From contig JANYJA010000018.1 in NCBI GenBank assembly GCA_025358575.1, positions 1 to 47,219 on the forward strand: a stretch of DNA of 47,219 bases, written 5' to 3'. The notes under the pieces were generated by a model, which saw only the letters and a list, made by a program, of their open reading frames with translations, was not told where the DNA came from and ran no database searches. This document shows, piece after piece, positions 2,569 through 31,169 of this stretch. The number at the start of each line of letters is the position of its first letter. Position 1 is the stretch's first letter. The position numbers and the translations under genes are program-made. Source of the stretch: Terriglobia bacterium. GTDB lineage: Bacteria > Acidobacteriota > Terriglobia > Bryobacterales > Bryobacteraceae.

Positions 2569-3831
2569 ATGCAACAGGTACTTCAATGGATGCGGCATCT
2601 GGTTTATCCGGTGGCGGGGATCTTTCTCCTGTGGGCCGGATATCAGGTTCTGGCCGACACTTACATTTCGGACAACAACGGCCAAATCCTGGTCGTCTAT
2701 AACGCCGACACCGCGTTACAAGATTGTTCCAGCCTCACTGCCGACGTCGAGAATTTGTCGGAGCAGGCGCTGGCGGGCGTATGCCAGGCATACCGGGATC
2801 AGCAAAAACAGGGCCGGGCCCCGACCCTCCAATTCCTAAATGTGCATGACAGCGTGGAGGACGGGCAAACGCTAAACGCGGGAGGCGTCTACGAGCAACT
2901 TTCCGCGCGAGTGGCTCACGGTTCGCTTCTTGGAATCGTCTCGGTCCTCACTTCACCCGACTCGCAGCCGGTAGTCCGGTTCTGCCGCAGCATGCAAATT
3001 CCGCTGCTTCTGGCACTGGCGGCAAACAACGATCTGCTCTCGCCGGTGGAGGATACCAACGGCCTCGTCTTCCGCATGATGCCTACCAACCGCGAACAGG
3101 CCCTCGACATCGCGATGTGGCTCCAGAAACGCAAGTTCGCGCGCGTCGCGCTGTTCCATGAACCCAACAGTTTTGGCGAATACCTTCATCGGCAGGTTAA
3201 CAACAACCTGAAGACCGCGGACTATTCGCCCGTGGTTTACCAGTTCGAAGTGAGGGAACAGATGGAGTTCGCCGACCTGATGCCGCAATTGCTGTGCGAT
3301 CGGATCGATGCGATCGTATATCTCGGTTTTGCATCTCGTGCGACGGACCTGATCGACAAACTCAAGTGGTATCAAGGCGATAAATCGAATAAGCGCTGCG
3401 AAGCGAAATCGCAATCGTTCGACGGACTCGCGGTGCTGCTTTCGAGCGGAGCCTACCAGGAAGATTTTAACGACGAGGACAAGTTTAAGTTCCCATTCAC
3501 GGCTTACGCGATGTTGCCCACCAAGCCCTTTCAAGTGCGCTCATCGAACGCGGACCGAAGGCACCCGATCACGGACGTCACTGAACTAGCGTCCGCCATG
3601 CAGTATGGGTACGACTCCTATCGGCTGATGTCGCGGCTGGCGGGTACCGCCAAAGGAAAAGGCAGCGATGCGCTGCGGCAGATATTTTCAGATCCGCCGC
3701 TGGATTCGAGAACGGGGCATGATTATCAGTTTGACGATCGTGGGGAATTGAAACCCGTGGATAAGAATAAGTATCAGGTTTATCGGCTGGCGTCGTCGCG
3801 GCCGGAGCCCTCGGAAAGGGGCAACCGATGA
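2569..3831 (+). CDS. Membrane-anchored periplasmic-binding-type (LivJ-like fold) protein
   Basis: 420 residues. One hydrophobic segment at about residues 10-29 (VYPVAGIFLLWAGYQVLA) acts as a signal anchor; no clear signal-peptidase site follows, so the protein is probably tethered and faces the periplasm. The rest resembles type I periplasmic ligand-binding proteins of the branched-chain amino acid/receptor family: segments such as GIVSVLTSPDSQPVVRF, VFRMMPTNREQALDIAMW and KFARVALFHEPNSFGEY match the alternating strand-helix pattern of the two lobes. There is no ABC permease or ATPase nearby. Its stop overlaps the start of the next gene by 4 bases (ATGA), so it is made with the membrane aminotransferase-fold protein and may present a ligand to it. 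The ligand is unknown. Confidence 0.75.
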   Translation: MQQVLQWMRHLVYPVAGIFLLWAGYQVLADTYISDNNGQILVVYNADTALQDCSSLTADVENLSEQALAGVCQAYRDQQKQGRAPTLQFLNVHDSVEDGQTLNAGGVYEQLSARVAHGSLLGIVSVLTSPDSQPVVRFCRSMQIPLLLALAANNDLLSPVEDTNGLVFRMMPTNREQALDIAMWLQKRKFARVALFHEPNSFGEYLHRQVNNNLKTADYSPVVYQFEVREQMEFADLMPQLLCDRIDAIVYLGFASRATDLIDKLKWYQGDKSNKRCEAKSQSFDGLAVLLSSGAYQEDFNDEDKFKFPFTAYAMLPTKPFQVRSSNADRRHPITDVTELASAMQYGYDSYRLMSRLAGTAKGKGSDALRQIFSDPPLDSRTGHDYQFDDRGELKPVDKNKYQVYRLASSRPEPSERGNR

Positions 3832-5618
3832 GCTGGCTCGGACTTCGACTGACGCCTCCGGACGAGAGCTATGACGGTTTTAAGTTCCGCATGGCCCGGA
3901 TTCTCTGCCTGGTGTTTGGCATTTTCGGGGTCCTGTTTTTCGTGAAGCATGCGGTGGTCATTCACAGTTTTTATGACATCGAACTGCTGCCTGAGCCGTT
4001 CCGGATTATCCGCAATTACGTTCTTGGATACTATCTGAAAACCGCGTGGGGCGCGCTGGAGGTGTTGTTAATTCTCGCCGGGTTTGCCGCGATCTTTTGG
4101 CTGAACTTTCCCAAACAGTACTTCGCGGGGCGATATCGCGATTACGGAAAGGAACGCGCCAGTTCGGAGGCGAAGAGCTTGAGCCTTTTGCTCGCTTTGC
4201 TGGCATTCAGTCTGGTCTTGTTCTCGGTCCCATTTCTAACGCTGCATTTCCCGATCTGGGTATCGTTCCTGGTGAAGTATGGACCGATCGCGGCCGGCGT
4301 TTTGCGTTACTTGTCGATTCTTCCAGACGCCAAGAGCGTTGACCGGATTCCGGAGATCGCGAAACTGGATTGGGATGTCCGCTGTTTTGATGCCTCATAC
4401 CGGTCGACACTCAGCCCCGCGCTGGTTAATGAACTAAAGGCGTGCGCGTCGCTGATGTCGCCCACGAGCCCTGAGGCGGCGCGGCGCTTCCTGACGCAGG
4501 GAAGTGCCAATGTTACATGGAGCGGCGTTGACGCGCTGTTCCACAACCTGGAAGCGTGGCTTCGCGTGAGCGCGGAATCGGTCACGCTGCATGATGACGC
4601 ATCCCACGGGATTGAGTTCGCCATCGGAGAAATTCTGGATGCGCGCGGCGCCAGTTCCACGGTGGTGCTTACAACGGATGCGGAACACAAGTCGCTGCGC
4701 TGCGTGGTGGAAGATCATTTGAAGCCGATCTACCAGTTCAAATCCGAGACTGTTCCTATCCAAAGCTTGCTTTGGAACAACGCGCCGACGCGTGAAATTG
4801 TCGCGAACCTTTTACAAGCTTGCGTCGATCATAAGCCGGATGTGTTCGTGCTGAGCCATGTTTTCCCGGACTCGGGCGTGATTTTAGATTTGAAAGAGCT
4901 AATCGATGGCGCGCGAAAGGAGGGGCTGCGAACGCTGTTTGTGGTGGACGGGTCGCAGGCGATGGGAAACATTCCGGTGAGCGACGACATTCTGTTGCGG
5001 TCCGCTTACTACGCGTTCAACGGCCACAATTGGCTTTTGGGAACGCCTTCTGTCGGGGTTCTGGTTCGCAACGGGTGGCTGCTTCGCGTCACTGCCCAGA
5101 TGCCGGAGGCGGCCGCGTTAAAACGCCCCTTCTCTTCATTTCGGCCCGGCGACACGCAGGATTTGCCGGCGACTTATGAAAGTTTCTTCCCGTGGTTCGC
5201 GCTGAATTATCTCTTGAAGCACGAGTGGCTCGAAGTGGGCGCCGAGGCCGCCACGAAACAGACCAAGCAACTTGCGGAACTGTTTCGGACGGAGATGCAG
5301 AAGCGCGATTTCCGCGTAATTGGAAACGCGGGGGAAAGCTCGATGGTGGTGATCACCGATGTGCCGCAGATCGACGCGTTGTACCGTGCGCTGGAGAACA
5401 AGCGGGTGCGCTGCCGGATGGTTAGCTCGGATCTGGATTCGGGTCGACGATCATTCGGAATCCGCTTCTGTTTCCATCATTATCACGATGACGAAGATGT
5501 GCGCGATTTGGCCGAATTCATCGGTAAATCCATGGTGTATTCGGACGCAGACGAGGCACCGCCGGAAGCTTGCGGGCCGCAGGGGGCCGGAGAGCGTTAC
5601 TTCGAAAAGTCAGCTTAA
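3828..5618 (+). CDS. Membrane protein fused to an aminotransferase class V-like domain lacking the PLP lysine
   Basis: 596 residues. The N-terminal ~165 residues hold about four membrane segments (near 22-45, 68-95, 117-137 and 140-165). The remainder looks like a fold-type I, class V aminotransferase/cysteine desulfurase domain: the TTDAEHKS strand-turn, LSHVFPDSGVILDLKEL, VVDGSQ with the aspartate (D374) that normally contacts the PLP ring nitrogen, and FNGHNWLLGTPSVGVLVR. In active members the last motif reads ...HKW..G; here the Schiff-base lysine position is N401 (codon AAT, 5028-5030) while the preceding histidine is kept. The domain is therefore probably not a classical PLP enzyme; it may bind a ligand or partner. 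It overlaps the upstream binding-protein gene by 4 bases. An unrecognised alternative lysine cannot be excluded. Confidence 0.72.
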   Translation: MSWLGLRLTPPDESYDGFKFRMARILCLVFGIFGVLFFVKHAVVIHSFYDIELLPEPFRIIRNYVLGYYLKTAWGALEVLLILAGFAAIFWLNFPKQYFAGRYRDYGKERASSEAKSLSLLLALLAFSLVLFSVPFLTLHFPIWVSFLVKYGPIAAGVLRYLSILPDAKSVDRIPEIAKLDWDVRCFDASYRSTLSPALVNELKACASLMSPTSPEAARRFLTQGSANVTWSGVDALFHNLEAWLRVSAESVTLHDDASHGIEFAIGEILDARGASSTVVLTTDAEHKSLRCVVEDHLKPIYQFKSETVPIQSLLWNNAPTREIVANLLQACVDHKPDVFVLSHVFPDSGVILDLKELIDGARKEGLRTLFVVDGSQAMGNIPVSDDILLRSAYYAFNGHNWLLGTPSVGVLVRNGWLLRVTAQMPEAAALKRPFSSFRPGDTQDLPATYESFFPWFALNYLLKHEWLEVGAEAATKQTKQLAELFRTEMQKRDFRVIGNAGESSMVVITDVPQIDALYRALENKRVRCRMVSSDLDSGRRSFGIRFCFHHYHDDEDVRDLAEFIGKSMVYSDADEAPPEACGPQGAGERYFEKSA

Positions 5619-5624
5619 CCGCTG

Positions 5625-5630
5625 TATAAT
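5625..5630 (+). promoter_or_regulatory. Candidate -10 box upstream of first halogenase-like gene
   Basis: A perfect TATAAT sits in the 40-base gap between the aminotransferase-fold gene and the halogenase-like gene, 28 bases before the ATG. The possible -35 (TTCGAA, 5601-5606) is poor. It suggests that the genes from 5659 onward can be transcribed separately from the pair upstream. Confidence 0.4.
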
Positions 5631-5658
5631 TTAAATTACCCGCTTCCCCACAGGCCCC

Positions 5659-7338
5659 ATGATTGAATCCGCCTACGAAACTTACGACGTTGCCATCTTA
5701 GGGGCTGGTTTTGAAGGCGGACTTCTAGGCACCATTCTGGCTAGGCAGGGCGCTAAAGTGCTGCTGATCGAAAGCGGGACGCACCCGCGATTCGCGGTCG
5801 GCGAGTCTACCGTGCGGCACGTGTTTCGCATGCTGAAGATCATCGGCGAACGCTACGACGTGCCCGAGATCATCGAGAAATTTAGCTCCGCGGACAGCAT
5901 CCACAAGCACGTGACAACCATGTGCGGCGAGAAGCGTAATTTCGGATTCGTCTATCATCGCGAAGGGCAGGATCAGAACGCCAGCGAATGCACGCAGCTC
6001 GTGATTCCTCCGTTTCGAGAAGGGTACGAGGCCCATCTGTATCGCCAGGATATCGATTCGTTTTTAACTTACACGGCGATTAACCATGGCGCGACGGTGC
6101 ACTACCGGACGTCGATCGCGGATATCGATATTCAAGACGACGGCTGCACGCTGACCAGTTCACAGGGCGATGTTTTTAAGTCGCGATACATCGTGGATGG
6201 ATCGGGCTATCGCTCCGTGTTGGCGATGAAGTTCAGATTGCGCGAAGAACCGAGCCGCTGCAGCACGTTTTCGAGAAGCTTATTCACGCACATGCTGAAC
6301 GTGACGCCATACGACGCGACGGTGACGCCTAGGGGCGCGCACGGAATGCCGCAGCCCTGGTATAGCGGCACTTGCCATCACATTTTCGACGGCGGGTGGC
6401 TGTGGGTGATTCCGTTCAACAACCGCGAGGGATCGACCAATCCGCTGGTTAGCGTGGGCTTGCAGCTCGATCCGCGGCGGTGGCCGAAGCCGCGCGACGT
6501 CACCCCGGAGCAGGAATTTCACCATTTTCTCGAGCGGTTTCCGAGCATGGCGGCGCAGTTCGAGAAAGCGCGAGCCGTACGCGACTGGGTTTCAACCGAG
6601 CGTATTCAGTTCTCAAGCAAACGCACGGTAGGTGACCGCTACTGCCTGATGGCACATGCTTCAGGCTTTATCGACCCGCTGTTTTCGCGCGGACTTCCGA
6701 ATGCGTGCGAGTTGATCAACGCGCTGGCGGTGCGGCTCCTGCGGGCGTTTAAGGACGACGATTTCTCTCCTGAGCGGTTCGATTATATCGAGCGGATGCA
6801 GCAGATCAATCTGGATTACAACGACCGGCTGGTGAACTGCGCGTACATTTCCTTCAAGAGCTTCGAACTATGGAATGCCTTTTTTCGGGTCTGGGTTCTG
6901 GGCGTGGGGCTCGGAGATTTGAGACTGACCAGCGCGCACCGGCGCTTTACGGCGACTCACGATGAATCGGTGTTGCCCGACGCGGAGGAACCGATGGGTC
7001 TGTTCTTCGCGCATCACACGGGATACAAGAAACTCTTCGAGGAAGCCTGCGACAAGGTAGAGGCGTTCGAAGCTGGAACGGTTTCGGCGCACGATGCGGC
7101 GCGCCACATCTTCGAATTGATGGCCGCCGCGGACTACGCGGCGCCTGCGAATCATTTGGCCGACCCGTCGAAGCGTTATGTGGATCAAGGCGAAACGGTG
7201 ACAGTGCTTAAGACAGTCGCGTGGCTGCTAACGTCGGCTCCGCCGGATATTAAGAAGATGGGCGGCGGTATCTTATCGGACTTGAATCCGCGGCGGCTGA
7301 TGTCTCGCAAGGTGACACCGGAGCCTTCGGCCATTTAG
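5659..7338 (+). CDS. Flavin-dependent halogenase-family oxidoreductase (copy 1)
   Basis: 559 residues. An FAD-binding GxGxxG motif lies at 15-20 (GAGFEG), followed by VGES at 47-50. Two hallmarks of flavin-dependent halogenases are present: WxWxIP at 247-252 (WLWVIP) and FxxPxxSxG at 337-345 (FIDPLFSRG). K92 in the segment CGEKRNFGFVYH is a candidate for the catalytic lysine that forms the haloamine or guides hypohalous acid; this is alignment by eye. Known family members use FADH2 from a separate reductase, O2 and chloride or bromide to halogenate an aromatic substrate; no reductase or carrier protein is seen here, so a free small molecule is the more likely substrate. The MFS gene follows after 3 bases. 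It is roughly two thirds identical to the protein at 10836-12494. A flavin hydroxylase is the main alternative. Confidence 0.78.
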   Translation: MIESAYETYDVAILGAGFEGGLLGTILARQGAKVLLIESGTHPRFAVGESTVRHVFRMLKIIGERYDVPEIIEKFSSADSIHKHVTTMCGEKRNFGFVYHREGQDQNASECTQLVIPPFREGYEAHLYRQDIDSFLTYTAINHGATVHYRTSIADIDIQDDGCTLTSSQGDVFKSRYIVDGSGYRSVLAMKFRLREEPSRCSTFSRSLFTHMLNVTPYDATVTPRGAHGMPQPWYSGTCHHIFDGGWLWVIPFNNREGSTNPLVSVGLQLDPRRWPKPRDVTPEQEFHHFLERFPSMAAQFEKARAVRDWVSTERIQFSSKRTVGDRYCLMAHASGFIDPLFSRGLPNACELINALAVRLLRAFKDDDFSPERFDYIERMQQINLDYNDRLVNCAYISFKSFELWNAFFRVWVLGVGLGDLRLTSAHRRFTATHDESVLPDAEEPMGLFFAHHTGYKKLFEEACDKVEAFEAGTVSAHDAARHIFELMAAADYAAPANHLADPSKRYVDQGETVTVLKTVAWLLTSAPPDIKKMGGGILSDLNPRRLMSRKVTPEPSAI

Positions 7339-7341
7339 ATC

Positions 7342-8505
7342 ATGAAGTTCTTGGCGCACGGCTTCAGTGCGCGTTTCTGGGCGCTAATCGCGGCTACGTT
7401 TCTGGGATTTCTTGGGATCGGCACGGTGCTGCCTGGCCTCGCGCCGCACATCCGGCACGATCTCGGCGGGTCGGACCGGACTGTCGGTTTCGTCATCGGA
7501 ACATTTTCATTCGTGGCACTGGCGAGCCGCTTCTTTTCGGGGCCGCTGGCGGACCGGAGAGGGCGCAAGATCGCATTTCTCAGCGGGCTGCTGAGTTGCG
7601 CCGCCGCGGGGGTCGCTTACTTATTGCCGCTGGGAATTGCCGGGGCTTATCTGGGCCGAATTTTCCAAGGTTTCGGTGAAGCTTGCCTATACACCGGCGC
7701 GGCGACGTGGGTAGTGGACGCGGCGGGCATCGATAGAAGCGCACAGGCGCTAGGTTACTTGAGCAGCGGGATTTGGGGCGGAATCTCAGCGGGTCCAGTG
7801 GTGGGACACTTCCTCGGGACGTTCCAACATGCGGCGATGATGCAGGTGATTACGGCGCTGGCGGCGTTCGCGGTGCTAATGCGAATCCCGGAAGACTATC
7901 GACCGCCTGCGCGGAGCGGGCGCAGGCAATGGATTCCGGCGTCGCTCGTGGGTCCGGGAATCGCCGTGGGTTTCGTCAACGTCCATTACCCGGTGATCGC
8001 CGGATTTCTAATTCTGCATTTGGCTCGGCACGGGAATTCAGGACCGGCGGCATTCTCGGCGTACGCGCTGATGATTCTGCTGTCGCGGTTCTTTCTTGGC
8101 GGCCTGCCGGATCGTATCCGCCCAACCATTACTTATTACGGTGGATTAGCGGCGATGACTGTAGGGCTGATCGTGGTTGCAACCGGGCCGTCGCCCGCCA
8201 TCGCGGTGGCCGCGACGGCTCTGCTGGGGCTCGGTTTCTCATTCCCGTGGTCGTCGATCGCGGCGACGGTTTTGAAACGAACTCCCGACGGTGAGCGCGG
8301 GTCCGCGGTGGGAGTGCTCAGCGCGTTTTACGATCTATTCGTGGGCGTCAGCTCGTTTGCCGCGGGAGTGGTGGCGAACCGGTGGGGATACGGGGCGGCT
8401 TTTACGATGGCCGCTGGCGCTCTGGGAGCGGCGGCGATCGCCGGAAGGTTCGTTTTCCCTGGGCAAAAAGCGAACATTCCGACGCCAGACGAGGTGATAG
8501 CATAG
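7342..8505 (+). CDS. MFS transporter
   Basis: 387 residues with about twelve hydrophobic segments, typical of drug/metabolite-exporting major facilitator proteins. The conserved loop 2-3 motif A is clear at residues 67-80 (GPLADRRGRKIAFL). The ATG is 3 bases after the stop of the halogenase-like gene, so the two are almost certainly co-transcribed. By position it may export the halogenated product or import its precursor; that is inference. The DUF1080 gene follows within a few bases. Confidence 0.88.
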   Translation: MKFLAHGFSARFWALIAATFLGFLGIGTVLPGLAPHIRHDLGGSDRTVGFVIGTFSFVALASRFFSGPLADRRGRKIAFLSGLLSCAAAGVAYLLPLGIAGAYLGRIFQGFGEACLYTGAATWVVDAAGIDRSAQALGYLSSGIWGGISAGPVVGHFLGTFQHAAMMQVITALAAFAVLMRIPEDYRPPARSGRRQWIPASLVGPGIAVGFVNVHYPVIAGFLILHLARHGNSGPAAFSAYALMILLSRFFLGGLPDRIRPTITYYGGLAAMTVGLIVVATGPSPAIAVAATALLGLGFSFPWSSIAATVLKRTPDGERGSAVGVLSAFYDLFVGVSSFAAGVVANRWGYGAAFTMAAGALGAAAIAGRFVFPGQKANIPTPDEVIA

Positions 8506-8511
8506 CCCGTG

Positions 8512-9135
8512 ATGAAGAATATTCTGGTACTCATGGCACTGGCGGCGGTTAGTCTTGCGGCTACGGAGAAGGGCTATACGTCGCTGTTCAACGGCAAGGA
8601 TTTTACCGGCTGGAAGCCAAATGAAAATGTGGACACGTGGTCCATCAAGGATGGCGCAATGGTGTCGCACGGGAAGCGCAGCCACTGCTTCTATGTCGGC
8701 GATTTTCACGGTCATACGTTCAAGGACTTCGAACTGAAGGTGGACGTGATGACGCTGCCCGGCTCGAATGGCGGCGTTTATATCGAGACTGAATATCAAG
8801 ATGAAGGATGGCCGGGCAAAGGGTTCGAAGTTCAGGTGAATAACACGTATAACAGCGACCCACGCAAGACCGGCAGTCTTTACGAAGTAAAAGATGTGAC
8901 CCGGCAAGTCGTGCCCGATAACAAATGGTTCACTGAAGACATTATTGCCAAGGGTGACACGATCAAGATCAAAGTTAATGGCAAAGTGGTGTCGCAATGG
9001 ACGCAGCCGGCCGACTGGAACGGCACGAAGGATTTCGTGGGGCGCCGCATCGGACCGGGAACGATTGCGCTGCAAGGTCATGATGCCGGCAGCACGGTGT
9101 ACTACAAAAATATTCGCATAAAACCGCTCGACTGA
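8512..9135 (+). CDS. Secreted DUF1080-family protein (3-keto-disaccharide hydrolase-like fold)
   Basis: 207 residues from the ATG at 8512; a GTG immediately before it (8509) could add one residue. A short signal peptide (about residues 1-17, ending VSLA) is followed by the typical DUF1080 opening YTSLFNGKDFTGWK and a jelly-roll-like series including GGVYIETEYQDEGWPGKGFEVQVNN and, at the end, GTIALQGHDAGSTVYYKNIRIKPL. Family members are secreted concanavalin-like proteins linked to sugar-derivative hydrolysis. It begins 6 bases after the MFS stop. Its link to the halogenase-like enzymes is unexplained. Confidence 0.88.
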   Translation: MKNILVLMALAAVSLAATEKGYTSLFNGKDFTGWKPNENVDTWSIKDGAMVSHGKRSHCFYVGDFHGHTFKDFELKVDVMTLPGSNGGVYIETEYQDEGWPGKGFEVQVNNTYNSDPRKTGSLYEVKDVTRQVVPDNKWFTEDIIAKGDTIKIKVNGKVVSQWTQPADWNGTKDFVGRRIGPGTIALQGHDAGSTVYYKNIRIKPLD

Positions 9136-9156
9136 GTGGCGCGCAAACTGCTCTTA

Positions 9157-9185
9157 AAGTCTTCCGGATTTCCTAAGGAAGATTT
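9157..9185 (+). promoter_or_regulatory. Potential hairpin covering the Shine-Dalgarno of the propeller gene
   Basis: AAGTCTTCC (9157-9165) can pair with GGAAGATTT (9177-9185) through nine pairs, one of them G-U, with an 11-base loop. The right arm contains the ribosome-binding sequence AAGGAAG that lies just before the ATG at 9186. If it folds, it would limit translation of the downstream gene. Seen by eye only. Confidence 0.35.
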
Positions 9186-10763
9186 ATGCGCATACACATC
9201 GCCGCCATCATTTTGGGGACACTTCCATGCTGCAGTTTCGGTCAAGGAAGCGTCCTAACTTATCACAACGATAACCTCAGGACAGGACAAAACCTCAACG
9301 AGAAGGTGCTGACACCGGCAAACGTCAACTCGGCGACGTTTGGAAAATTGCTGAACCTGCCTGTGGATGGAAAGGTGGATGCGCAGCCGTTGGTGGTGTA
9401 CCCGATCGCAATGGGCGGTAAGAGGCTTCGCACAGTGGTCTATACGGCGACGGAGCATGACAGCGTCTACGCATTCGATGCCGCCACGGGTCAGCAATAC
9501 TGGCATGTCTCGATGTTGAAGACGGGCGAGACAACTTCTGGCGATCATGGGTGCGGACAGGTCACGCCGGAAATTGGGGTGACGGGAACACCGGTGATCG
9601 ATCGCAAATCGGGCCCGCACGGCACTATTTACATCGTGGCGATGAGCAAGGACTCGTCGAATCACTATTTCCAAAGGCTTCATGCGCTCGACCTCACAAC
9701 CGGCGCCGAACAGTTCGGAGGCCCGGTGGATATCGCCGCGACATACCCGGGAACGGGAGACAACAGCAGCAACGGGAATGTTATCTTCGACCCGGGGCAG
9801 TACAAGAATCGGCCGGGTTTGCTTTTGTTGAACGGCGTGGTGTACACGAGTTGGTCATCGCACTGCGATATTCGGCCTTACACGGGTTGGACGATGGGAT
9901 ATAACGAAACGACGCTGGCGCAAACCGCCGTGTTCAACTTCGCTCCAAACGGAAACGAGGCTGCGGTTTGGGCGAGCGGCGCGGGTCCGGCGGCGGATGC
10001 CTCGGGGAATCTATATTTTCAGATCGCCAACGGGACCTTCGATACTGCGCTCAACACGCAAGGTTTTCCGAGCCGAGGGGACTACGGAAACGCTTTCGTG
10101 AAATTGACCCCTAGCGCGGGCAAACTTACAGCCGCCGATTATTGGACGATGTATAACACGGTTGCGGAATCCAACGTGGATGAGGATCTGGGTTCGGGCG
10201 GGATTCTGCTGCTGCCGGACCTGACCGACGCCAGCGGCAAGGTTCGTCACTTGGGAGTGGGCGCGGGCAAGGACCGCAACATCTACGTGGTGGATCGCGA
10301 CAACATGGGAAAATTCAACGCTTCCAGCAATTCCAATATTTATCAGGAACTACCGCTGGCCCTTAACGGCCAGGAGTACGCAATGCCGGCGTGGTTCAAC
10401 GGTTACGTCTACATTTGCGCGGTGGGCGATGTGATTCGCGCTTATAAAGTAACCTCGGCGCTGCTGTCGACGACGCCGACCTCATCGTCGCCGACGGCAC
10501 TGGCGTATCCCGGCGCGACGCCTTCGATCTCGGCGAACGGGACCACGAACGCAATCTTGTGGGCCGTGGAAAACACCAATCCGGCGATTCTTCATGCCTA
10601 TGATGCGAATGATTTGGTGACTGAGCTTTATAACAGCAACCAGGCTTCGGGCGGGCGCGACCAGTTCGGCGCCGGCAACAAATTCATTACACCGACCATC
10701 GCGAACGGCAAAGTGTTCGTGGGAACGACCAATAGTGTAACGGTGTTCGGATTATTGAAGTAG
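9186..10763 (+). CDS. Secreted PQQ-type beta-propeller protein
   Basis: 525 residues with a signal peptide (about 1-19, ending CCSFG). The start YHNDNLRTGQNLNEKVLTPANVN and the later DGKVDAQPLVVYP, VYAFDAATGQQYW and TPVIDRKSGPHGTIYIVAM segments match a family of secreted pyrrolo-quinoline-quinone-like repeat proteins common in Acidobacteria. Repeated blade-like strands with aromatic-glycine motifs continue to FVGTTNSVTVFGLLK. Cofactor use is not evident; many relatives are non-enzymatic propellers. A good Shine-Dalgarno (AAGGAAG) supports the start. It lies 50 bases after the DUF1080 gene and 72 before the second halogenase-like gene. Confidence 0.82.
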   Translation: MRIHIAAIILGTLPCCSFGQGSVLTYHNDNLRTGQNLNEKVLTPANVNSATFGKLLNLPVDGKVDAQPLVVYPIAMGGKRLRTVVYTATEHDSVYAFDAATGQQYWHVSMLKTGETTSGDHGCGQVTPEIGVTGTPVIDRKSGPHGTIYIVAMSKDSSNHYFQRLHALDLTTGAEQFGGPVDIAATYPGTGDNSSNGNVIFDPGQYKNRPGLLLLNGVVYTSWSSHCDIRPYTGWTMGYNETTLAQTAVFNFAPNGNEAAVWASGAGPAADASGNLYFQIANGTFDTALNTQGFPSRGDYGNAFVKLTPSAGKLTAADYWTMYNTVAESNVDEDLGSGGILLLPDLTDASGKVRHLGVGAGKDRNIYVVDRDNMGKFNASSNSNIYQELPLALNGQEYAMPAWFNGYVYICAVGDVIRAYKVTSALLSTTPTSSSPTALAYPGATPSISANGTTNAILWAVENTNPAILHAYDANDLVTELYNSNQASGGRDQFGAGNKFITPTIANGKVFVGTTNSVTVFGLLK

Positions 10764-10835
10764 CGCTAAAACGGTCTTCTTTAGAAGCGTAAATTGGTAG
10801 ATCCCGGGGTTGGCGGGGCCATCTCATGATCTACG

Positions 10836-12494
10836 ATGAGCCAACACTCTAACGAGCAGTTTGATGTCGCCATTATCGGTGCCGGATTTGAAGGAGGATT
10901 GTTAGGAACGATCCTCGCTGCCAACGGCGCCAAGGTTCTCATGATTGAATCCGGGATGCACCCGCGATTCGCCGTCGGCGAATCGACCGTGCGCCACGTG
11001 TTCCGGATGCTCAAAATTATGGGCGAGCGGTTTAACGTGCCGGAGATCAGCGAAAAATTCAGTTCCGGGCAGGAAATTCACGATCACGTCACCACGGCCT
11101 GCGGTGAGAAGCGAAACTTCGGTTTCATCTATCATCGGCCGGGTGAAAAGCAGATTCCAAAAGAATCCACGCAGCTTGTGATTCCGCCATTTCGCGAAGG
11201 GTACGAGGCGCATCTATACCGGCAGGATATCGATTCATTTCTGACTTACTCGGCGGTGGGTCACGGGGCGACGGTGAAGTACAACACGCGCATCGCTGAA
11301 GTGGATATCAACGACAAGGAAGCGACGATCTCGACCACGAGCGGCGAAGAGTTTCGGGCGAGGTACGTGGTGGACGGATCGGGCTACCGTTCGGTGCTGG
11401 CGAACAAATATGGAGTTCGCGAAACGCCGACGCGGCTGAAACATCACTCGCGCTGCCTTTTCACGCACATGGTGAACATCACGCCTTACGACGACTGCGT
11501 GCCCAAGGGGACCTTCAAGGATATGAAGGAGCCGTGGTACAGCGGCACTTGCCATCACATTTTCGACGGCGGCTGGCTCTGGATTATTCCGTTCAACAAT
11601 CGGGAAGGGTCGAGCAATCCGCAATGCAGCATTGGTTTGACGCTGGACACACGACGGTGGCCGAAGCCAACCGACATCACGCCGCAGCAGGAGTTCGACG
11701 AATTTCTGAAGAAGTTCCCGGCGATGGCGCCGCAGTTTGCGAAGGCGAAGACCACGCGAGACTGGGTATCGACGGATCGGCTGCAGTTCTCATCGACGCA
11801 GGTGGTGGGCGACCGCTGGTGCCTTTCGGCGCATGCTTCAGGGTTTATCGACGCGCTGTTCTCGCGCGGGCTGGCGAACGCCTGCGAATTCACGAACGCG
11901 GCGGCGGGGCTTCTGCTCAAGGCGATCAAGGACGACGATTTTTCGAAGGAACGATTCGAATATCTGGAGCGACTTTCGCAGACCAACATCGATTTCAACG
12001 ACATGATGGTGAACTGCGCCTTCATCTCATTCCGCGACTTCGATCTCTGGAACGCATGGTTTCGCGTGTGGGCGCTGGGCGTTGGGCTGGGCGATTTGCG
12101 GCTGACGGCCTCCTATCGAAAGTTCAAAAACACGCATGACGTTTCGGTGCTTCCGGACGCGGAAGAACCGATGGGAGTGTTCTACGCGCATCACCACGGG
12201 TACAAGGAATTCTTCCTCGACGTGGTAGCCAAGATGGAAGCCGTAGACGCGGGTCTGGTGGGACCGAAAGAAGCGGCGCGTTATATCTTCCAGAAAATTT
12301 CCGAAGCCGATTTCCACTCACCGGCGAACAAGATGGCGATTCCCGAAGCGCGCTGCATCAACGTGGGCGCTCCGATAACGCTGATCAAGACGGTAGCGTG
12401 GGCCCTGACTTCGGCTCCGCCGGAGATCAAGGAATACACTCTCGGCGTAATGGCGGACCTAATTCCGAATCGATTTACGGCTACGGCGAGGTAA
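10836..12494 (+). CDS. Flavin-dependent halogenase-family oxidoreductase (copy 2)
   Basis: 552 residues, collinear with copy 1 through at least residue 345. GAGFEG at 15-20, VGES at 47-50 and CGEKRNFGF are shared, and WxWxIP is intact at 247-252 (WLWIIP). The second hallmark is altered: FIDALFSRG at 337-345, with alanine at 340 (codon GCG, 11853-11855) in place of the proline of copy 1. It may therefore have a different substrate or activity, or have lost halogenation. The 72-base gap upstream has no clear Shine-Dalgarno, so regulation may be separate. The last 14 bases overlap the convergent minus-strand gene. Confidence 0.76.
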   Translation: MSQHSNEQFDVAIIGAGFEGGLLGTILAANGAKVLMIESGMHPRFAVGESTVRHVFRMLKIMGERFNVPEISEKFSSGQEIHDHVTTACGEKRNFGFIYHRPGEKQIPKESTQLVIPPFREGYEAHLYRQDIDSFLTYSAVGHGATVKYNTRIAEVDINDKEATISTTSGEEFRARYVVDGSGYRSVLANKYGVRETPTRLKHHSRCLFTHMVNITPYDDCVPKGTFKDMKEPWYSGTCHHIFDGGWLWIIPFNNREGSSNPQCSIGLTLDTRRWPKPTDITPQQEFDEFLKKFPAMAPQFAKAKTTRDWVSTDRLQFSSTQVVGDRWCLSAHASGFIDALFSRGLANACEFTNAAAGLLLKAIKDDDFSKERFEYLERLSQTNIDFNDMMVNCAFISFRDFDLWNAWFRVWALGVGLGDLRLTASYRKFKNTHDVSVLPDAEEPMGVFYAHHHGYKEFFLDVVAKMEAVDAGLVGPKEAARYIFQKISEADFHSPANKMAIPEARCINVGAPITLIKTVAWALTSAPPEIKEYTLGVMADLIPNRFTATAR

Positions 12495-24402: not shown

Positions 24403-26085
24403 CTACTTGGTCGCGATATTGATATTTTGAGTCTGGATGGTTTGAGCGGTGGCGCGATCAAGATCGGCGGCGGCTCGGCCCAAATCCGCTTGCGCACGAA
24501 CCTCGCGGGTACGGGCTGCGATCAGGTCGGTCTGGCGTTGGAGCACTAGAAATACCGTGGTAGTGCCCGCCTGGAACTGGCGCTGCTCACTTTGGTACTG
24601 CTCGTTCGCCGACTGGCGCGCGCGCGACGCGGCATCAAGACGCGATTGCGCGGATTCAAGACCCTGTAACGAATTTCGAACGTCCGCTTGAATGGCCATT
24701 TCCGTCTGTTCGCGAAGTGTTCGCAACCGCCGGCCTTCAGCCGCCGAAATTGCGGCCTGGGCATTCGCGGTTCGGTTGCGTAGAGGCAACGACATCTGCA
24801 CGCCGACCTGCGCGGTTGGGAAACTGCCCGCGGTCAAATTGCCGAGCGATTGGCCATAGCCACCGACGAAGATAGGGGGCACGCCGCCGCTGCCGAATGA
24901 GATGGGCGGAATGAGGGGAAGTCCGGCCAAACCCGACAGAATATTGAGACGCTGCAAAAGCGCGTCGGTGCTGGCGGTAAAAGGATTCGGGCCGGGCGGC
25001 AAAGGCCTGCCGGCAAGACCGGCGAGGCTAAATGTGCCCACCGCGTCGATCTGCGGCTTGGCGAGCTCGCGAGTTAAGCGTGTGTCAAGTCTGTTGATCT
25101 CGATCGAAAAATTGCTTTCCGCCAATTCAGGCCGAGTGTTCAGGGCGCGTTTGACGGCTTCGTCCAACGGGGGCGTCAAAATATGCGCGCTGGGTGGAGT
25201 TTCGGGAATCAGCGCGACGCCCCACATCATGTCGCTGCGATTCGGCAGCATGAGAGCTTTCAGCGCGTTCTCGTTACGCGTGAGTGTTTCTTGCGCGATA
25301 AAAATGTTTTGCTCGAAGTTCGCGATCTGAGTCTGGGTGGCAATTACGTCAACGGGCGCAAGCAAGCCTTGCTGCACCTGCCGACGGTTGCTTTGGTCCT
25401 GTTTCTCAGCGAGGCGCACGGCATCGATTTGAACTTCAAGACTGCGATACGCGTAATCGAGTTCCCAATAGGCCTGGACAGCTTGAGTTGCGACTTCAAT
25501 CACGCGTTGGCGAAACTGTTCCTCCGTCAAGCTCTGATTCTTGCGCGCGACTTGAAGGCGATGGCGGTTATCGTCGAACCGGAGACCGCGCCACAGCGGT
25601 TGGGTCAGGCTGAGCGAAAGCGCGGTTGGAAACTGCGGATTTAAAGTAATGAACGTGCTATCGCTGCGTTGCCGCGATGACGCGAAGTCGAGCTTGTACG
25701 ATCCGCCGAGCCACGGTGAAACTCCGCTCAATTGAGGGTCGGCGTAGATCTGAGTCTGAGTCAGCTTGCCGTTGGCTCCGCCGCCAATGAGCGACGAAAT
25801 CGGCGTCACGCTCTTGACTCTGTAAGCGTTGAGGCCTAACCGCGGATCGTAATAGCCCTGCGCCGATCGAATGTTGAAGTTGGCTTCCTCGCGGGCGATT
25901 CGCGACACTTCAATATCCCGATCGTTGGCGAGAACGCGCTGAATCACTTCCGGCAAGGTGATCGCGGTTGTGCCCAAGACACCGACGCGAGGCTGCACAT
26001 CGAGCGACCGCGCGGGAGGCAGCGTCTGCGCGCCAATGCCAGCAACGGCCAGGAGGACGATTGCGAAAAATCGACAATGCGCCAT
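24403..26085 (-). CDS. TolC-family outer membrane efflux protein
   Basis: 560 residues with a signal peptide (ending GIGA). The two outer-membrane efflux repeats contain the usual long helices (VIEVATQAVQAYWELDYAY, TQTQIANFEQNIFIAQETL; LESAQSRLDAASRARQSANEQY). A Pro/Gly-rich insert (near residues 356-420) separates two helices in the second repeat, a feature seen in acidobacterial relatives. The protein would form the outer-membrane duct of the RND pump. Its ATG overlaps the RND stop by one base (TAATG), so the genes are coupled. Confidence 0.92.
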   Translation of the reverse strand: MAHCRFFAIVLLAVAGIGAQTLPPARSLDVQPRVGVLGTTAITLPEVIQRVLANDRDIEVSRIAREEANFNIRSAQGYYDPRLGLNAYRVKSVTPISSLIGGGANGKLTQTQIYADPQLSGVSPWLGGSYKLDFASSRQRSDSTFITLNPQFPTALSLSLTQPLWRGLRFDDNRHRLQVARKNQSLTEEQFRQRVIEVATQAVQAYWELDYAYRSLEVQIDAVRLAEKQDQSNRRQVQQGLLAPVDVIATQTQIANFEQNIFIAQETLTRNENALKALMLPNRSDMMWGVALIPETPPSAHILTPPLDEAVKRALNTRPELAESNFSIEINRLDTRLTRELAKPQIDAVGTFSLAGLAGRPLPPGPNPFTASTDALLQRLNILSGLAGLPLIPPISFGSGGVPPIFVGGYGQSLGNLTAGSFPTAQVGVQMSLPLRNRTANAQAAISAAEGRRLRTLREQTEMAIQADVRNSLQGLESAQSRLDAASRARQSANEQYQSEQRQFQAGTTTVFLVLQRQTDLIAARTREVRAQADLGRAAADLDRATAQTIQTQNINIATK

Positions 26086-29000
26086 TAAGCGACGCTCTCA
26101 ACCGTGGCACGCTTGCGGCGCGGAAGACGATCGCGCAGTGACGATGTCATCTTTACCAGCCGCTTGCCAAAAGGATGTTCCTGGAGATCTTCGAATAGCG
26201 AATAAAACACGGGCACTGCCAGAAGCGTCAAAATAAGACAGAGCGATTGGCCGCCGACGACGAGCACGCCGATGGAGCGATTCGTGGCCGAGCCGGTGCC
26301 GCTTGAAACGACGAGCGGAATCATTCCCGCAACGAGCGCAATGGTGGTCATCAGAATGGGCCGCAACCGGTCGCGATTGGCTTGAATAATAGCGTCGTAC
26401 CGCGACAAGCCCGCCTTGCGCAGGCCATTGGTGTGATCGATCTGCAGGATCGCATTTTTCTTTACGATTCCAAAGAGCAGCAACAAACCGAGACCGGAGA
26501 AGATGTTCACGGTCTGATGCGCAATGAGAAGCGCCAGGATACCGAACGGGATTGCAAGCGGCAGAGTGAGCAAAATCGTGATTGGGTGAATGAACGACTC
26601 GAACTGCGCGGCAAGCACGATGTACATAAAAATAAACGTCAGCGAGAACGCAAGCACGAAGTAATAGCCTGCGCGGCCCAGTTCTTTCGACGTCCCGGCG
26701 AGCCCGGTGCGATAGTCCGCGTCGAGATTCAAGTCAGCGGCGGCCTTGTTCAAAAGACTCAGCACAGCAGTCTGCGATCCGCCGGCCAAGATATTTCCTG
26801 TGAGCGTCACCTGGCGTTGGCGGTTGATGCGATTGACGGCTGAAGGGCCGGTGCCAGGGCGGATCTGCACTACTTCATCGAGGCCCACGGAACCACGCTT
26901 CGACGAGGGAACGGTAATTTTGGCGAGGCCTTCCGCGCTGCCGCGAAACTCTTCGAGCGCGCGAACGCGCACGTCGTATTGGTCTTCACCGGCGTTAAAT
27001 GTGGAGGCCACTTGTCCGGCGACCATGGTATTCAGGGCCTGTTCGATATCGGACACCGAGACACCCAGGTCGGCGGCGCGGGGCCGGTCGATTTCAAGAC
27101 GAACTTCGGGCTTGCCATTGCGCAGCGTGGTATCGGCGTCGGCCAGCTCCGGGATCGTTTTCATTTTCGCGAGGAGGGCGTCGGAATAAACTGATAACTT
27201 CTGAAGGTCCGGGCCCTGCACAAAGTACTGGACATCGGCGTTACTCTGATTGCCGCCCACGGTGCTGACCAGTTCCACGCTCGTATGAACTTCAGCGGGG
27301 TAGCGCTTTAGCAACTGGCGCGTGCGCTGCATCAAATTGATCTGAGAAAGGTCGCGCGCCCCCAGCTCGGTGAGTTTGACGTAGATCGAGGCGTTGTTGG
27401 CGGATTTATCGGCACCGCCGCCATCGGTCATCAGAGTGTGCGCTACGCCGGGCAGGCGGCGAATTTCCTGGGCGACATTCTCCGCGATGTTGGTGGTGGC
27501 GGCTAGCGAACTGCCTTCTGGAGTACGCACCAGCACGTTGTACTGCGACTGGTCATCCGACGGAAGGAAGTTTTTGCCTACCAGCATGAACAACGGCACG
27601 ATGCTAAGGATCACCAGGGCGCTTATGGCAATTACAATGCGCCGATGCGCCATGGACCACTTCAGCATGGCCGTGTAGCGCGTATCGATCCAATGAAACA
27701 CGCGCGAATCTTTGGAGGTGCGCCCGCCCGCATGTTCCTTGGGCTTCTTAACGAATCGCGAACAGAGCATGGGCGTAAGCGTGAATGAAACCAGGAGGGA
27801 AACGGCGATGGCGAAACCGGACGTGAACCCAAACGAGCTCATAAAGCGGCCTACGATACCGCCCATGAATCCGACGGGCAAGAACACCGCCAGAAGCGAG
27901 AGAGTGGTGGCCATGACGGCAAGACCGATCTCGCGTGTGCCTTCAATCGCCGCCTCATACGGAGACATCCCCTTCTCTTCGATGAAACGGTAAATATTTT
28001 CGAGCACGATGATGGCGTCGTCAATGACAATCCCGACCATCAGCGTGAGCGCCAGCATGGTGATTTGATTTAACGTGAAGCCCATCGCGGCCATGAGCGC
28101 GAACGTGGAGATGATGGATGTCGGAATCGCGATGGCGGCGATCAAGGTGGTGCGGATATTAGCCAGGAACAGAAAAATGATGATCGACGCGAAAAAACTG
28201 CCTTCAACCAAGTGGCGTTTGATGGAGTCGACCGCCGCTTTGATAAAAACCGATTGATCCGAAATTACTTCCGCTTTGAGATCGCGCGGCAGCGACCTCG
28301 CAATCTCTTTTAGCCGCGATTTCACTTCATCGGCAGTGGCGACGGTGTTTTCGCCGGACTGCTTAGCCACGATTAAAGTGACCGCGGGAACCCCATCCAG
28401 ACGCGCGGATGTTCGCGGCTCCTCATAGCTGTCTTCAGCCGAACCGATATCGCTAACCTTGACGACGTAGCCGTCGCGATTGGCGATGGCGATTTGATTG
28501 AACTGTTCCGAATCGACGACACGCCCCGTGGTGCGGACCGTGAACTCTTTCGCGCCCGCGTTCAGATTTCCGCCGGGCAGTTCGAGATTTTGAGTGCGGA
28601 GCGCATTGAAGACATCCGTGACCGTGAGGTTGTAGGCGCGCAAGCGATCCGGATCCACGGAGATATGAATTTCGCGCTTAGCTCCGCCGACGATCGTGAT
28701 CTCGCCGACGCCCTTCGAATTTTCAAGCTTCTGCTTGATCTGCTTGTCGGCAATCAAGGTAATATCGCGCAACGAACGCGGAGCGGAAACGGCGATCTGC
28801 AAAATAGGCGCGGCGTCGGGATCGAACTTCGTGACCACTGGCTGCTTGGCGGTCTGCGGAAGGTTATTCACGATCGCGTTGACTTTGTTTTGGATTTCCT
28901 GCGCGGCGACATCGCCATTCTTGGCGAGCTCAAATGTGACGACGACCAGTGCTTGGCCTTCGGAAGAAGTGGAGCGCACTTCATCCACCAGACTGATGGT

Positions 29001-29219
29001 GTTTACGGCATCTTCAACCTTCTTCGTGATCTCAGTTTCGACTTCTTCCGGGGAAGCGCCGGGATTCAGGATGGTGATGGCGACGGTGGGAATATCAACC
29101 TTCGGGAAGAGATCGACACCGAGGCTGAAGTAAGAGAAGATGCCGACGACGACGAGCGAGAGAATCAACATCGTCGCGAAGACGGGACGGCGAACGCAGA
29201 GCGCCGCGAGACTATGCAT
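26085..29219 (-). CDS. RND (HAE1-type) efflux transporter
   Basis: 1044 residues, the length of AcrB-like pumps, with twelve membrane helices and two large periplasmic loops. The proton-relay aspartates are visible at D400-D401 in TM4 (GIVIDDAIIVLEN) and the partner lysine in FGIVKKNAILQIDHTN of TM10. The start RPVFATMLILSLVVVGIFSYFSLGVDLFP is typical. It uses the proton gradient to expel hydrophobic compounds. It overlaps the fusion-protein gene by 8 bases and the TolC gene by 1. Confidence 0.95.
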   Translation of the reverse strand: MHSLAALCVRRPVFATMLILSLVVVGIFSYFSLGVDLFPKVDIPTVAITILNPGASPEEVETEITKKVEDAVNTISLVDEVRSTSSEGQALVVVTFELAKNGDVAAQEIQNKVNAIVNNLPQTAKQPVVTKFDPDAAPILQIAVSAPRSLRDITLIADKQIKQKLENSKGVGEITIVGGAKREIHISVDPDRLRAYNLTVTDVFNALRTQNLELPGGNLNAGAKEFTVRTTGRVVDSEQFNQIAIANRDGYVVKVSDIGSAEDSYEEPRTSARLDGVPAVTLIVAKQSGENTVATADEVKSRLKEIARSLPRDLKAEVISDQSVFIKAAVDSIKRHLVEGSFFASIIIFLFLANIRTTLIAAIAIPTSIISTFALMAAMGFTLNQITMLALTLMVGIVIDDAIIVLENIYRFIEEKGMSPYEAAIEGTREIGLAVMATTLSLLAVFLPVGFMGGIVGRFMSSFGFTSGFAIAVSLLVSFTLTPMLCSRFVKKPKEHAGGRTSKDSRVFHWIDTRYTAMLKWSMAHRRIVIAISALVILSIVPLFMLVGKNFLPSDDQSQYNVLVRTPEGSSLAATTNIAENVAQEIRRLPGVAHTLMTDGGGADKSANNASIYVKLTELGARDLSQINLMQRTRQLLKRYPAEVHTSVELVSTVGGNQSNADVQYFVQGPDLQKLSVYSDALLAKMKTIPELADADTTLRNGKPEVRLEIDRPRAADLGVSVSDIEQALNTMVAGQVASTFNAGEDQYDVRVRALEEFRGSAEGLAKITVPSSKRGSVGLDEVVQIRPGTGPSAVNRINRQRQVTLTGNILAGGSQTAVLSLLNKAAADLNLDADYRTGLAGTSKELGRAGYYFVLAFSLTFIFMYIVLAAQFESFIHPITILLTLPLAIPFGILALLIAHQTVNIFSGLGLLLLFGIVKKNAILQIDHTNGLRKAGLSRYDAIIQANRDRLRPILMTTIALVAGMIPLVVSSGTGSATNRSIGVLVVGGQSLCLILTLLAVPVFYSLFEDLQEHPFGKRLVKMTSSLRDRLPRRKRATVESVA

Positions 29220-30489
29220 GACGAGATCCTACCGGGGCGCCATCGTAGATCTCGGTCAAGTTGCTGGTGGCGACAGTTTCACTGCCGTCCAGACCGGAGC
29301 GAATGCGAATCGAATCGCCGTCAACGTCACCGACCAGAACCACCCGCAAGCGAGCTTTGCCGTCTTTGACCACGAAGAGTTGATAGGAGTCGGTAGTTTT
29401 GTCGCGGATGACCGCCGACCGGGGGACGAACACGGCATCCTCTCCGCCCGGAAGCACGATGCGCGCGGTGGCGAACATGCCGGGCCGCAGCGCGGCGTTG
29501 GGGTTAGGGAATTTAGCTTCGAGAATGAAGGCGCGCGAATTCGGATCGACCGACATGTTGCTGGCCGAGATTCTTCCCTCAAAGTCACGGCCGGGATAAG
29601 CAGCCACGCGCGCGAGCACGCGCATTCCCAAACGCGCGCGAGCGGCTTGTTGTTCCGGAGTTTGTAATTGCAGCTTAAGGGTGCCGATGCGGACGACGGT
29701 TGCGATTTTGGACGTGAGAGCCACAAACTCGCCGGCGGCAACAGGGCGGGCAGTCACGAAACCATCGAAGGGAGCGCGGATGGTGGTGTCGGCGAAACCC
29801 TTCTCGGCTTGGGCGAGTTGCGCTTGAACGGCGGCCAGAGACGCCTGCGACGACGCGACTATCTGATAACTTTGGCGCGCGCCGTTAAGCGCCGCCTCAT
29901 ATTGCTGGCGAGCGGCGTTGGCTTGAGCTTCAGCGGTTTCCTGCTGGGTGCTGGCACGATCGGCGGCACTTCGCGAGACATCGCCGGTCGCCGTGAGGCT
30001 CGCATAACGCCGCGAATCCGCGGCGGCCAGTTTGGCCTGCGCTTGTGCGGATTCATAATTAGCGCGCGCGGCGGCGGCTTCGGGCACTTTATTGGGGTCG
30101 AAAGTGCCGCCCGAGAGGCCGATGCGGGACTGGCTCTGACGAAGTGCCGCATTGGCTTCTTCGATCTGTGCACGGGCCTGCTGTAATTTGAGCTGCGCAT
30201 CGCGATGGTCAAGCTCGCAGATGACCTGACCCTTCCGGACGAACGCACCGACATCTACCGGGGTGAAAATCACGCGTCCCGCGACGGGCGGCGCGATGTC
30301 GGAGCTTTCATCCGCCACGAAGGTACCGGTCTCCTCAAAAGAAGCGGGAACCTGCCGACGCCCGGCGTGGGCGGTCGCAACGGTAACAACGACCTGTTTC
30401 CGACTATCGGCATTGACCGAAGCGTCGGGCTTCGACCCGCAGGAAATGAATGTCACCAACGTGAATAACGGGATCGCAAGAGACTTCAT
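29212..30489 (-). CDS. RND membrane fusion lipoprotein
   Basis: 425 residues. A lipoprotein signal ends in FISCG, so the protein is probably anchored in the membrane through that cysteine. The lipoyl/barrel-sandwich halves (GRVIFTPVDVGAFVRKGQVICELD; TTIRAPFDGFVTARPVAAGEFV) flank a long Ala/Gln-rich coiled-coil hairpin. It bridges the RND pump and the TolC duct. It starts in a 4-base ATGA overlap with the TetR gene. Confidence 0.93.
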   Translation of the reverse strand: MKSLAIPLFTLVTFISCGSKPDASVNADSRKQVVVTVATAHAGRRQVPASFEETGTFVADESSDIAPPVAGRVIFTPVDVGAFVRKGQVICELDHRDAQLKLQQARAQIEEANAALRQSQSRIGLSGGTFDPNKVPEAAAARANYESAQAQAKLAAADSRRYASLTATGDVSRSAADRASTQQETAEAQANAARQQYEAALNGARQSYQIVASSQASLAAVQAQLAQAEKGFADTTIRAPFDGFVTARPVAAGEFVALTSKIATVVRIGTLKLQLQTPEQQAARARLGMRVLARVAAYPGRDFEGRISASNMSVDPNSRAFILEAKFPNPNAALRPGMFATARIVLPGGEDAVFVPRSAVIRDKTTDSYQLFVVKDGKARLRVVLVGDVDGDSIRIRSGLDGSETVATSNLTEIYDGAPVGSRHA

Positions 30490-31169
30490 CGCTTATTAGC
30501 AGCCTTTTTTTTAACAGTTCCGGTTTTTCGAGATTTGATTCGCACGCCGTCCAATACGATGCAAGTAAAAGTCTCCACCACCGCTTCGTCCGACGCCGTG
30601 ATCTCGCGCAGACCGAAAATCTCGGTCATCATGGCATAATGCTGGGCCATTCCAGCGATCGCGACGATGATGAGGCCGGGGTCGCACTGACGCAGCGCGC
30701 CTTCACGCTGTCGGCGGCGAACGTACTGACGCAGCATGTCGAAAATGGGAAGAGACATCTGGCGGTGATGCATGGAGGCCAGCTCATGGCCCTCAAGCCC
30801 GCTATAGAGCATCAGCCTCTCAAACTTCGGATCGGTCCGGTGAGCGTGGATAATAATCTTGGCGATGGCGCGAAATAAGCCTTCGTCGTCGCCGCGCTCC
30901 ATGCACTCTTTGGTCGTGGAGAGCCACTCGGTTTTACCTGCCTTTTGCAGGCGATGGTCCAGAATGGCCGTGTAAAGCTGCTGTTTGGTTGCGAAGTGGC
31001 GGAAGATCACAGCTTCATTCACCCCCGCGGCGGCGGCGATTTCCTTGGTGGTAGTGCCCCCAAACCCTTTGCGCGAGAAGAGATCCACGGCTGCATCCAG
31101 CAACTGCACGCGCCGCTCGTCGGCCGGCATTCGGGCATGTGCGGGTTTGACCATGAGGCGTCCGGGCAT
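30486..31169 (-). CDS. TetR-family repressor of the efflux operon
   Basis: 227 residues. The N-terminal helix-turn-helix is standard TetR: ERRVQLLDAAVDLFSRKGFGGTTTKEIAAAAGVNEAVIFRHFATKQQLY. The C-terminal domain is a variable ligand-binding bundle. It is the first gene of the TetR-MFP-RND-TolC run and overlaps the next by 4 bases. The operator and promoter directly upstream (31179-31208) are textbook for self-repression. Start codons at 31169, 31154 or 31130 are possible; none has a Shine-Dalgarno, and 31169 lies about 3 bases from the predicted transcription start. Confidence 0.93.
   Translation of the reverse strand: MPGRLMVKPAHARMPADERRVQLLDAAVDLFSRKGFGGTTTKEIAAAAGVNEAVIFRHFATKQQLYTAILDHRLQKAGKTEWLSTTKECMERGDDEGLFRAIAKIIIHAHRTDPKFERLMLYSGLEGHELASMHHRQMSLPIFDMLRQYVRRRQREGALRQCDPGLIIVAIAGMAQHYAMMTEIFGLREITASDEAVVETFTCIVLDGVRIKSRKTGTVKKKAANKR

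Follow-up and report, generated by a model that had tools for sequence, protein, structure and literature searches.

A candidate membrane ligand-sensing pair beside a putative halogenation and export unit in a Terriglobia bacterium

The stretch of DNA analysed here (47,219 nucleotides, hereafter the window) forms the beginning of contig 35 in the 4.77 Mb draft genome of a Terriglobia bacterium of the family Bryobacteraceae. Between positions 2569 and 12494 it carries seven genes, named below by their first position, which an earlier sequence-only reading had grouped into one system that senses, halogenates and exports a small molecule. The seven open reading frames (ORFs) were confirmed at the coordinates of that reading, all on the forward strand, and the gaps between them were as short as it had described (-4, 40, 3, 3, 50 and 72 bases in order from 2569 to 10836). 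Comparison with related genomes indicated that they are probably better read as two units than as one system: a membrane-bound gene pair (unit A, 2569-5618) and a halogenation unit (unit B, 5659-12494). The features are as follows.

2569..3831, forward strand: unit A, gene 1, type I periplasmic binding protein with an N-terminal membrane segment, residues 11-29 (PF13458, 32.4 bits)
3828..5618, forward strand: unit A, gene 2, class V aminotransferase-fold domain preceded by about four membrane segments, with Asn401 in place of the Schiff-base lysine (PF00266 at 39.1 bits, match to 1elq, five-member alignment)
3828..3831, forward strand: ATGA overlap of 4 bases between the unit A genes (junction sequences and coordinates; five of five genomes)
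5602..5630, forward strand: promoter-like site TCGAAA-17-TATAAT (10/12) ahead of the first halogenase; weak evidence, as the pattern occurs at chance frequency
5659..7338, forward strand: unit B, flavin-dependent halogenase of the CtcP/PltM/PrnC clade, Lys92 and Glu124 kept (PDB match, alignment)
7342..8505, forward strand: unit B, major facilitator superfamily (MFS) transporter, probable exporter by presumed direction (PF07690, 131 bits; NCBIfam matches all under cut-off)
8509..9135, forward strand: predicted secreted PF06439 protein, possible passenger (145.5 bits; N-terminal hydrophobic segment)
9186..10763, forward strand: beta-propeller-like protein, possible passenger, its start resembling a signal sequence (pyrroloquinoline quinone (PQQ)-propeller matches, all under cut-off)
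10836..12494, forward strand: unit B, second flavin-dependent halogenase, sharing 65% identity with the first and likewise retaining Lys92 and Glu124 (alignment, tree)

The domain calls of the sequence-only reading held, with Pfam matches for six of the proteins and sub-cut-off PQQ matches for the propeller. The lysine-less pair is the interesting part of the locus; the halogenases are ordinary members of a known clade. Protein 3828 matched Aminotran_5 (PF00266) well above the cut-off of 21.5 bits, the domain sitting behind the hydrophobic segments, and a profile of its family matched the C-S lyase 1elq at 9.6e-14. At the position of the lysine that forms the Schiff base with pyridoxal 5'-phosphate (PLP), 3828 reads GHNW where the C-S lyase reads GHKW, which bears out the degenerate domain proposed earlier. 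In the five-member alignment, the residues at this place are N, G, D, G and K in the window and in genomes G783, G883, G772 and G867, respectively. The Asp and Gln of the DGSQ/DGAQ motif were kept in all five members. The stacking His was kept in four (Tyr in G867), as was the His preceding the lysine place (Asp in G783). The Asp and Gln belong to the PLP site. A PLP-dependent class V aminotransferase is recognised by its Schiff-base lysine; this residue is replaced in 3828, which was therefore not filed as a PLP enzyme. The pattern suggests an enzyme turned pseudoenzyme, and we infer from the single lysine-bearing, distant member (G867) that the enzyme form came first. Like other proteins of the class V fold (cysteine/cystine C-S lyase, SufS-type desulfurases), 3828 has the domain core and the PLP-site Asp and Gln. 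Unlike them, it carries a replaced lysine, membrane segments ahead of the domain and a binding-protein partner.

Hydropathy analysis at a lenient cut-off predicted about four membrane segments in four members of the 3828 family; in three of these members the second segment came out as two overlapping predictions. These four members have 5 or 6 Lys/Arg residues between the second and third segments. Following the positive-inside rule for membrane topology, these charges would place the aminotransferase-fold domain in the cytoplasm.

Protein 2569 matched Peripla_BP_6 (PF13458) slightly above the cut-off of 31.7 bits, which points to a type I binding-protein fold; of three relatives tested in Pfam, one had no match and two fell under the cut-off. 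A profile of five members of the 2569 family matched the Leu/Ile/Val-binding protein (LivJ) of amino-acid ATP-binding cassette (ABC) importers at 8e-9. The similarity extends across about 160 residues, and a Ser aligned with Ser79 is invariant in the five members. Unlike the Leu/Ile/Val-binding protein, the family does not keep the Thr102 position, 2569 is anchored to the membrane at its N-terminus, and the seven window genes include neither an ABC permease nor an ABC ATPase, so that an ABC importer is not recognised here. Near the G867 pair, ABC genes resemble ABC-2 exporter genes by sequence. Amino acid binding by the 2569 family may be taken as no more than a lead. The one hydrophobic segment of the protein would anchor it by its N-terminus, with the binding domain outside the membrane.

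Conservation of the pair was followed in groups of genomes called family, class and phylum as the search tool defines them. In the whole-family search (237 genomes), relatives of 3828 were found in five genomes including its own: G783 (63% identity), G883 (63%), G772 (60%) and G867 (28%). In these four other genomes the gene immediately upstream, in the same orientation, is a relative of 2569 (53, 52, 48 and 31% identity), and the 4-base overlap is present in all five. This search alone revealed the 3828 orthologues. In a set of 61 relatives, 3828 had matches at E <= 0.001 in 31 genomes, all partial except for the own gene and with a maximum of 29.3 bits; 18 of 399 class genomes matched at E <= 1e-8, again partially except for the own gene (maximum 43 bits), and a profile search of 139 phylum genomes returned the own gene alone. 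Searches with 2569 also recovered just the own gene, both in the 61 relatives and in 396 phylum genomes. For the class and the phylum, the sets of 399, 396 and 139 genomes were samples of larger groups. Contig scans of genomes with 3828 and with the halogenase alignment, and viral scans with 3828 and its alignment, were silent; they use an insensitive short-peptide-pattern method, so that silence means little. In the closest comparison, G883 against G772, the nonsynonymous and synonymous rates (dN and dS) were 0.16 and 1.02 for the 3828 family and 0.29 and 0.89 for the 2569 family, which indicates purifying selection in this comparison; most other comparisons were near or beyond saturation at synonymous sites. 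To our knowledge the pair is undescribed, and among the papers listed by literature searches for it, or for a pseudoenzyme of this kind, there was nothing on this pair.

The neighbours of the pair differ in all five genomes, and in the window they are the halogenases (neighbours given as "-like" here and below were judged by sequence). In G783, they are a protein kinase and a phage-lysozyme domain (Pfam) and a hydrolase-like gene with no Pfam match. The G883 pair has a helicase-like gene beside it, the G772 pair an iron-permease-like gene on the opposite strand. The G867 pair (L079:6831-12895, L080:10491-19895, G867:C166) adjoins thioesterase and methyltransferase genes (Pfam) together with polyketide synthase (PKS)-like and nonribosomal peptide synthetase (NRPS)-like genes, and the gene of a predicted secreted ankyrin-repeat protein overlaps its end by 4 bases. 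None of the other five window genes had a relative around the four other pairs (tblastn). As a separate observation, extracellular contractile injection system-like genes (DUF4255- and DUF4157-like; L081:1-8293, G783:C40) lie about 8 kb from the G783 pair.

In unit B, 5659 and 10836 matched Trp_halogenase in Pfam (59.7 and 48.6 bits). Comparison of 5659 with solved structures gave CtcP (7xgb) at 2.2e-149 and PltM (6bzt) at 2.4e-96, the tryptophan halogenases being far behind at about 1e-5; this comparison covers 5659, to which 10836 is linked by their 65% identity. CtcP is the tetracycline 7-halogenase, PltM a phenol halogenase, and PrnC acts in the pyrrolnitrin pathway. Both window proteins align along their full length with members of annotated pyrrolnitrin operons (about 45% identity), and both contain the flavin adenine dinucleotide (FAD) motif GxGxxG (GAGFEG), the WxWxIP motif (WLWVIP/WLWIIP) and, as equivalents of PrnC Lys97 and Glu129, Lys92 and Glu124. 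According to a study on PrnC, mutating the catalytic Lys or Glu abolished or strongly cut activity (PMC10770391); another report names CtcP Lys98 and PltM Lys87 as the same catalytic lysine (PMC12400496). The motifs and catalytic residues shared with CtcP, PltM and PrnC, together with the full-length similarity of 5659, indicate that 5659 and 10836 are flavin halogenases of the CtcP/PltM/PrnC clade and apparently intact. They are unlike PrnC in that His54 takes the place of its Glu60, and no pyrrolnitrin or assembly-line genes were seen among the window proteins scanned. The best NCBIfam match of 5659 was CmlS, under cut-off. A flavin reductase was not found among the seven genes, and the domain had one match in the own genome, on contig 249. 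Among the papers listed by literature searches on halogenases in this phylum or family, there was likewise nothing on this pair.

Relatives of these halogenases occur in other surroundings. Fourteen plasmid records held a relative at E <= 1e-40, and seven were opened: two contained pyrrolnitrin-type operons, in four the gene had NRPS, PKS or type II PKS genes as neighbours, and one (Halostagnicola) showed no biosynthetic neighbours, so that six of the seven, unlike the window, belong to assembly-line or pyrrolnitrin clusters. At E <= 1e-60, halogenases were found in three of the 237 family genomes and three of the 399 class genomes, the own genome being counted in both; the 61 relatives added three genomes with distant relatives (28-31% identity). 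A third paralogue of the own genome, on contig 215 (L057:8249-9940), lies amid housekeeping-like genes. In the tree it groups with the proteins of G838 and G329 (100/99), with which it shares a 2-residue insertion after the GDRW/GERW motif; the window proteins lack this insertion and are sisters to each other, a grouping less well supported (82/86). The G838 gene also has housekeeping-like neighbours, whereas two short-chain dehydrogenase/reductase (SDR) genes and glycosyltransferase-like genes are found near that of G329. In G290, a halogenase of the same clade (L068:9331-13046, G290:C13) stands beside two beta-ketoacyl-acyl carrier protein synthase III (KAS III)-like genes, possibly a small unstudied pathway. 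The other five window genes had no relative at the relatives' halogenase loci (tblastn).

Between and around the enzymes, 7342 matched MFS_1 and 8509 matched PF06439, the 3-keto-disaccharide hydrolase family, formerly DUF1080. As the sequence-only reading had stated, the seven proteins showed no PKS, NRPS or carrier domain, nor did the 16 larger ORFs further along the window contain one (smaller ORFs were left unscanned). No core scaffold enzyme of a classical biosynthetic cluster was thus seen in the 7 + 16 proteins scanned; the genome as a whole was searched for type III PKS alone, with no match. Genes judged by sequence to encode glutamate synthase subunits end 73 bases upstream of 2569. 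Elsewhere in the window, a resistance-nodulation-division (RND) efflux operon (outer membrane factor, AcrB-type pump, HlyD-type adaptor) with a TetR regulator occupies 24403-31169, and an alpha-L-arabinofuranosidase-type protein (PF22848 and PF06964) is encoded at 38116-40140.

Other origins and functions were considered for the locus. A defence system was marked down after PADLOC was run on six proteins (10836 left out): five had no match, while the matches of 3828 were weak and of desulfurase type (SspA 5.2e-4, DndA 9.7e-4). Recent arrival from a source of different composition was unsupported, as overall GC content and that of third codon positions (GC3) were similar to those of five flanking genes. 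Phage or plasmid origin was likewise unsupported for the genes searched; 3828 had no plasmid or phage match, 2569 none in plasmids and 10836 none in phages, while the G867 relative had one partial match to a Staphylococcus plasmid (23.8%).

The two-unit arrangement is suggested by how the families are distributed. The pair occurs in five and the halogenase in three of the 237 family genomes, and both are found together solely in the genome of the window; none of the four other pair genomes is among the three with a detected halogenase. The sequence-only reading had proposed a search for co-occurrence in related genomes, adding that independent occurrence with no conserved neighbourhood would speak against a joint system. 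That is largely what we observed: neighbourhoods vary and the halogenase accompanies the pair in the window's genome alone, the exception being 2569 and 3828 themselves, which are adjacent in five of five genomes. The promoter-like site at 5602-5630 fits two units, although at chance frequency. The link between the units is adjacency, and they may possibly be transcribed together.

Several observations weigh against two separate units, or against the roles that we propose for them. All seven genes lie on one strand with short gaps, so that one transcript is possible, and the region contains 6 promoter-like sites against 5.2 expected, i.e. chance level. The overlap of pair and halogenase gave a one-sided Fisher p = 0.062, and numbers as small as 5 and 3 genomes neither show nor exclude an association; moreover, not every first-look candidate of the family searches was scored in each genome. 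The PKS/NRPS region by the G867 pair is a second example of a link to specialised metabolism. In NCBIfam, 10836 came closest to the wider geranylgeranyl reductase family (2.4e-20), ahead of the halogenase CmlS in second place, both under cut-off. Finally, topology rests on hydropathy, which gave three segments for the G867 member, and the single-sequence AlphaFold model of 3828 was poor (mean predicted local distance difference test, pLDDT, 41) and was not used.

Strand, spacing, the overlap in the window's genome and the biosynthetic genes beside the G867 pair are also what would be expected of a single sense-and-modify operon, in which the pair senses or captures a small molecule for modification by the halogenases and export by the MFS protein. 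We consider this unlikely, because the families occur apart in relatives: the pair is found with no detected halogenase in four genomes and the halogenase with no pair in two, and the neighbours of both vary. The joint set proposed earlier was therefore largely not borne out; halogenation followed by export is still plausible for 5659-8505.

For unit A, 3828 could instead be an active membrane enzyme that binds PLP with no Schiff base and acts on an amino acid delivered by the binding protein. The PLP-site Asp and Gln in five of five members, the stacking His in four and the lysine of G867 agree with this, and in some working enzymes of the same fold type His stands in for the Lys (ColD, E1). 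Against it, the four lysine-less members carry N, G, D and G and share no common substitute, which argues against a replacement catalyst, and the neighbouring His is an Asp in G783; we give this explanation little credence. It seems more improbable still that 5659 and 10836 are flavin monooxygenases or detoxifying enzymes acting on soil phenolics. Sub-cut-off matches to aromatic hydroxylases and rifampin monooxygenase would suit such enzymes, as would a neighbourhood in which no biosynthetic genes were seen and a genome with no type III PKS match, but the best PDB matches are halogenases by a wide margin and the Lys, the Glu and WxWxIP are kept.

Collectively, the data are, in our judgement, probably best explained by a membrane ligand-sensing pair standing beside a small halogenation and export unit, the two being together in this lineage alone. 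In unit A, a two-gene membrane module, 2569 would be tethered to the inner membrane by its N-terminus and bind a small, perhaps amino-acid-like ligand. It would hand its bound state, or the ligand, to 3828, which would span the membrane with about four helices and hold its class V domain in the cytoplasm. In the window and three relatives, the loss of the Schiff-base lysine probably means that this domain no longer performs PLP chemistry in the conventional manner; having arisen from a PLP enzyme, it may now have a binding, regulatory or scaffold role. In unit B, the two flavin halogenases would add chlorine or bromine to a free small aromatic (phenol- or pyrrole-type), with FADH2 supplied by a reductase whose gene lies outside the locus. 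Their substrate would be synthesised elsewhere or imported. Export of a product is the probable task of the MFS protein, and the two predicted secreted proteins may be passengers.

A more speculative proposal, which we put forward tentatively and regard as rather doubtful, is that the pair represents an undescribed class of transmembrane sensor. Here a tethered type I binding protein would be joined to a membrane pseudoenzyme whose former PLP domain (C-S lyase/desulfurase-like) serves as cytoplasmic receiver, and the lysine-bearing G867 member would preserve the step from enzyme to sensor. Unit A shares with MocR-type regulators the idea of an aminotransferase fold serving for sensing. Those regulators are soluble proteins in which a winged helix-turn-helix (wHTH) domain is fused to an aminotransferase domain of another class with its lysine intact; unit A, unlike them, is predicted to be membrane-bound, is lysine-less and is paired with an outside binding protein.

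The locus illustrates that short gaps on one strand alone do not make a functional set. The twin halogenases would add candidates for the halogenation of small aromatics outside assembly-line clusters. If the pair is a sensor, the PLP fold would join the enzyme folds reused as membrane signalling domains, and the presence of lysine-bearing and lysine-less forms in one bacterial family would make the change from enzyme to pseudoenzyme directly testable.

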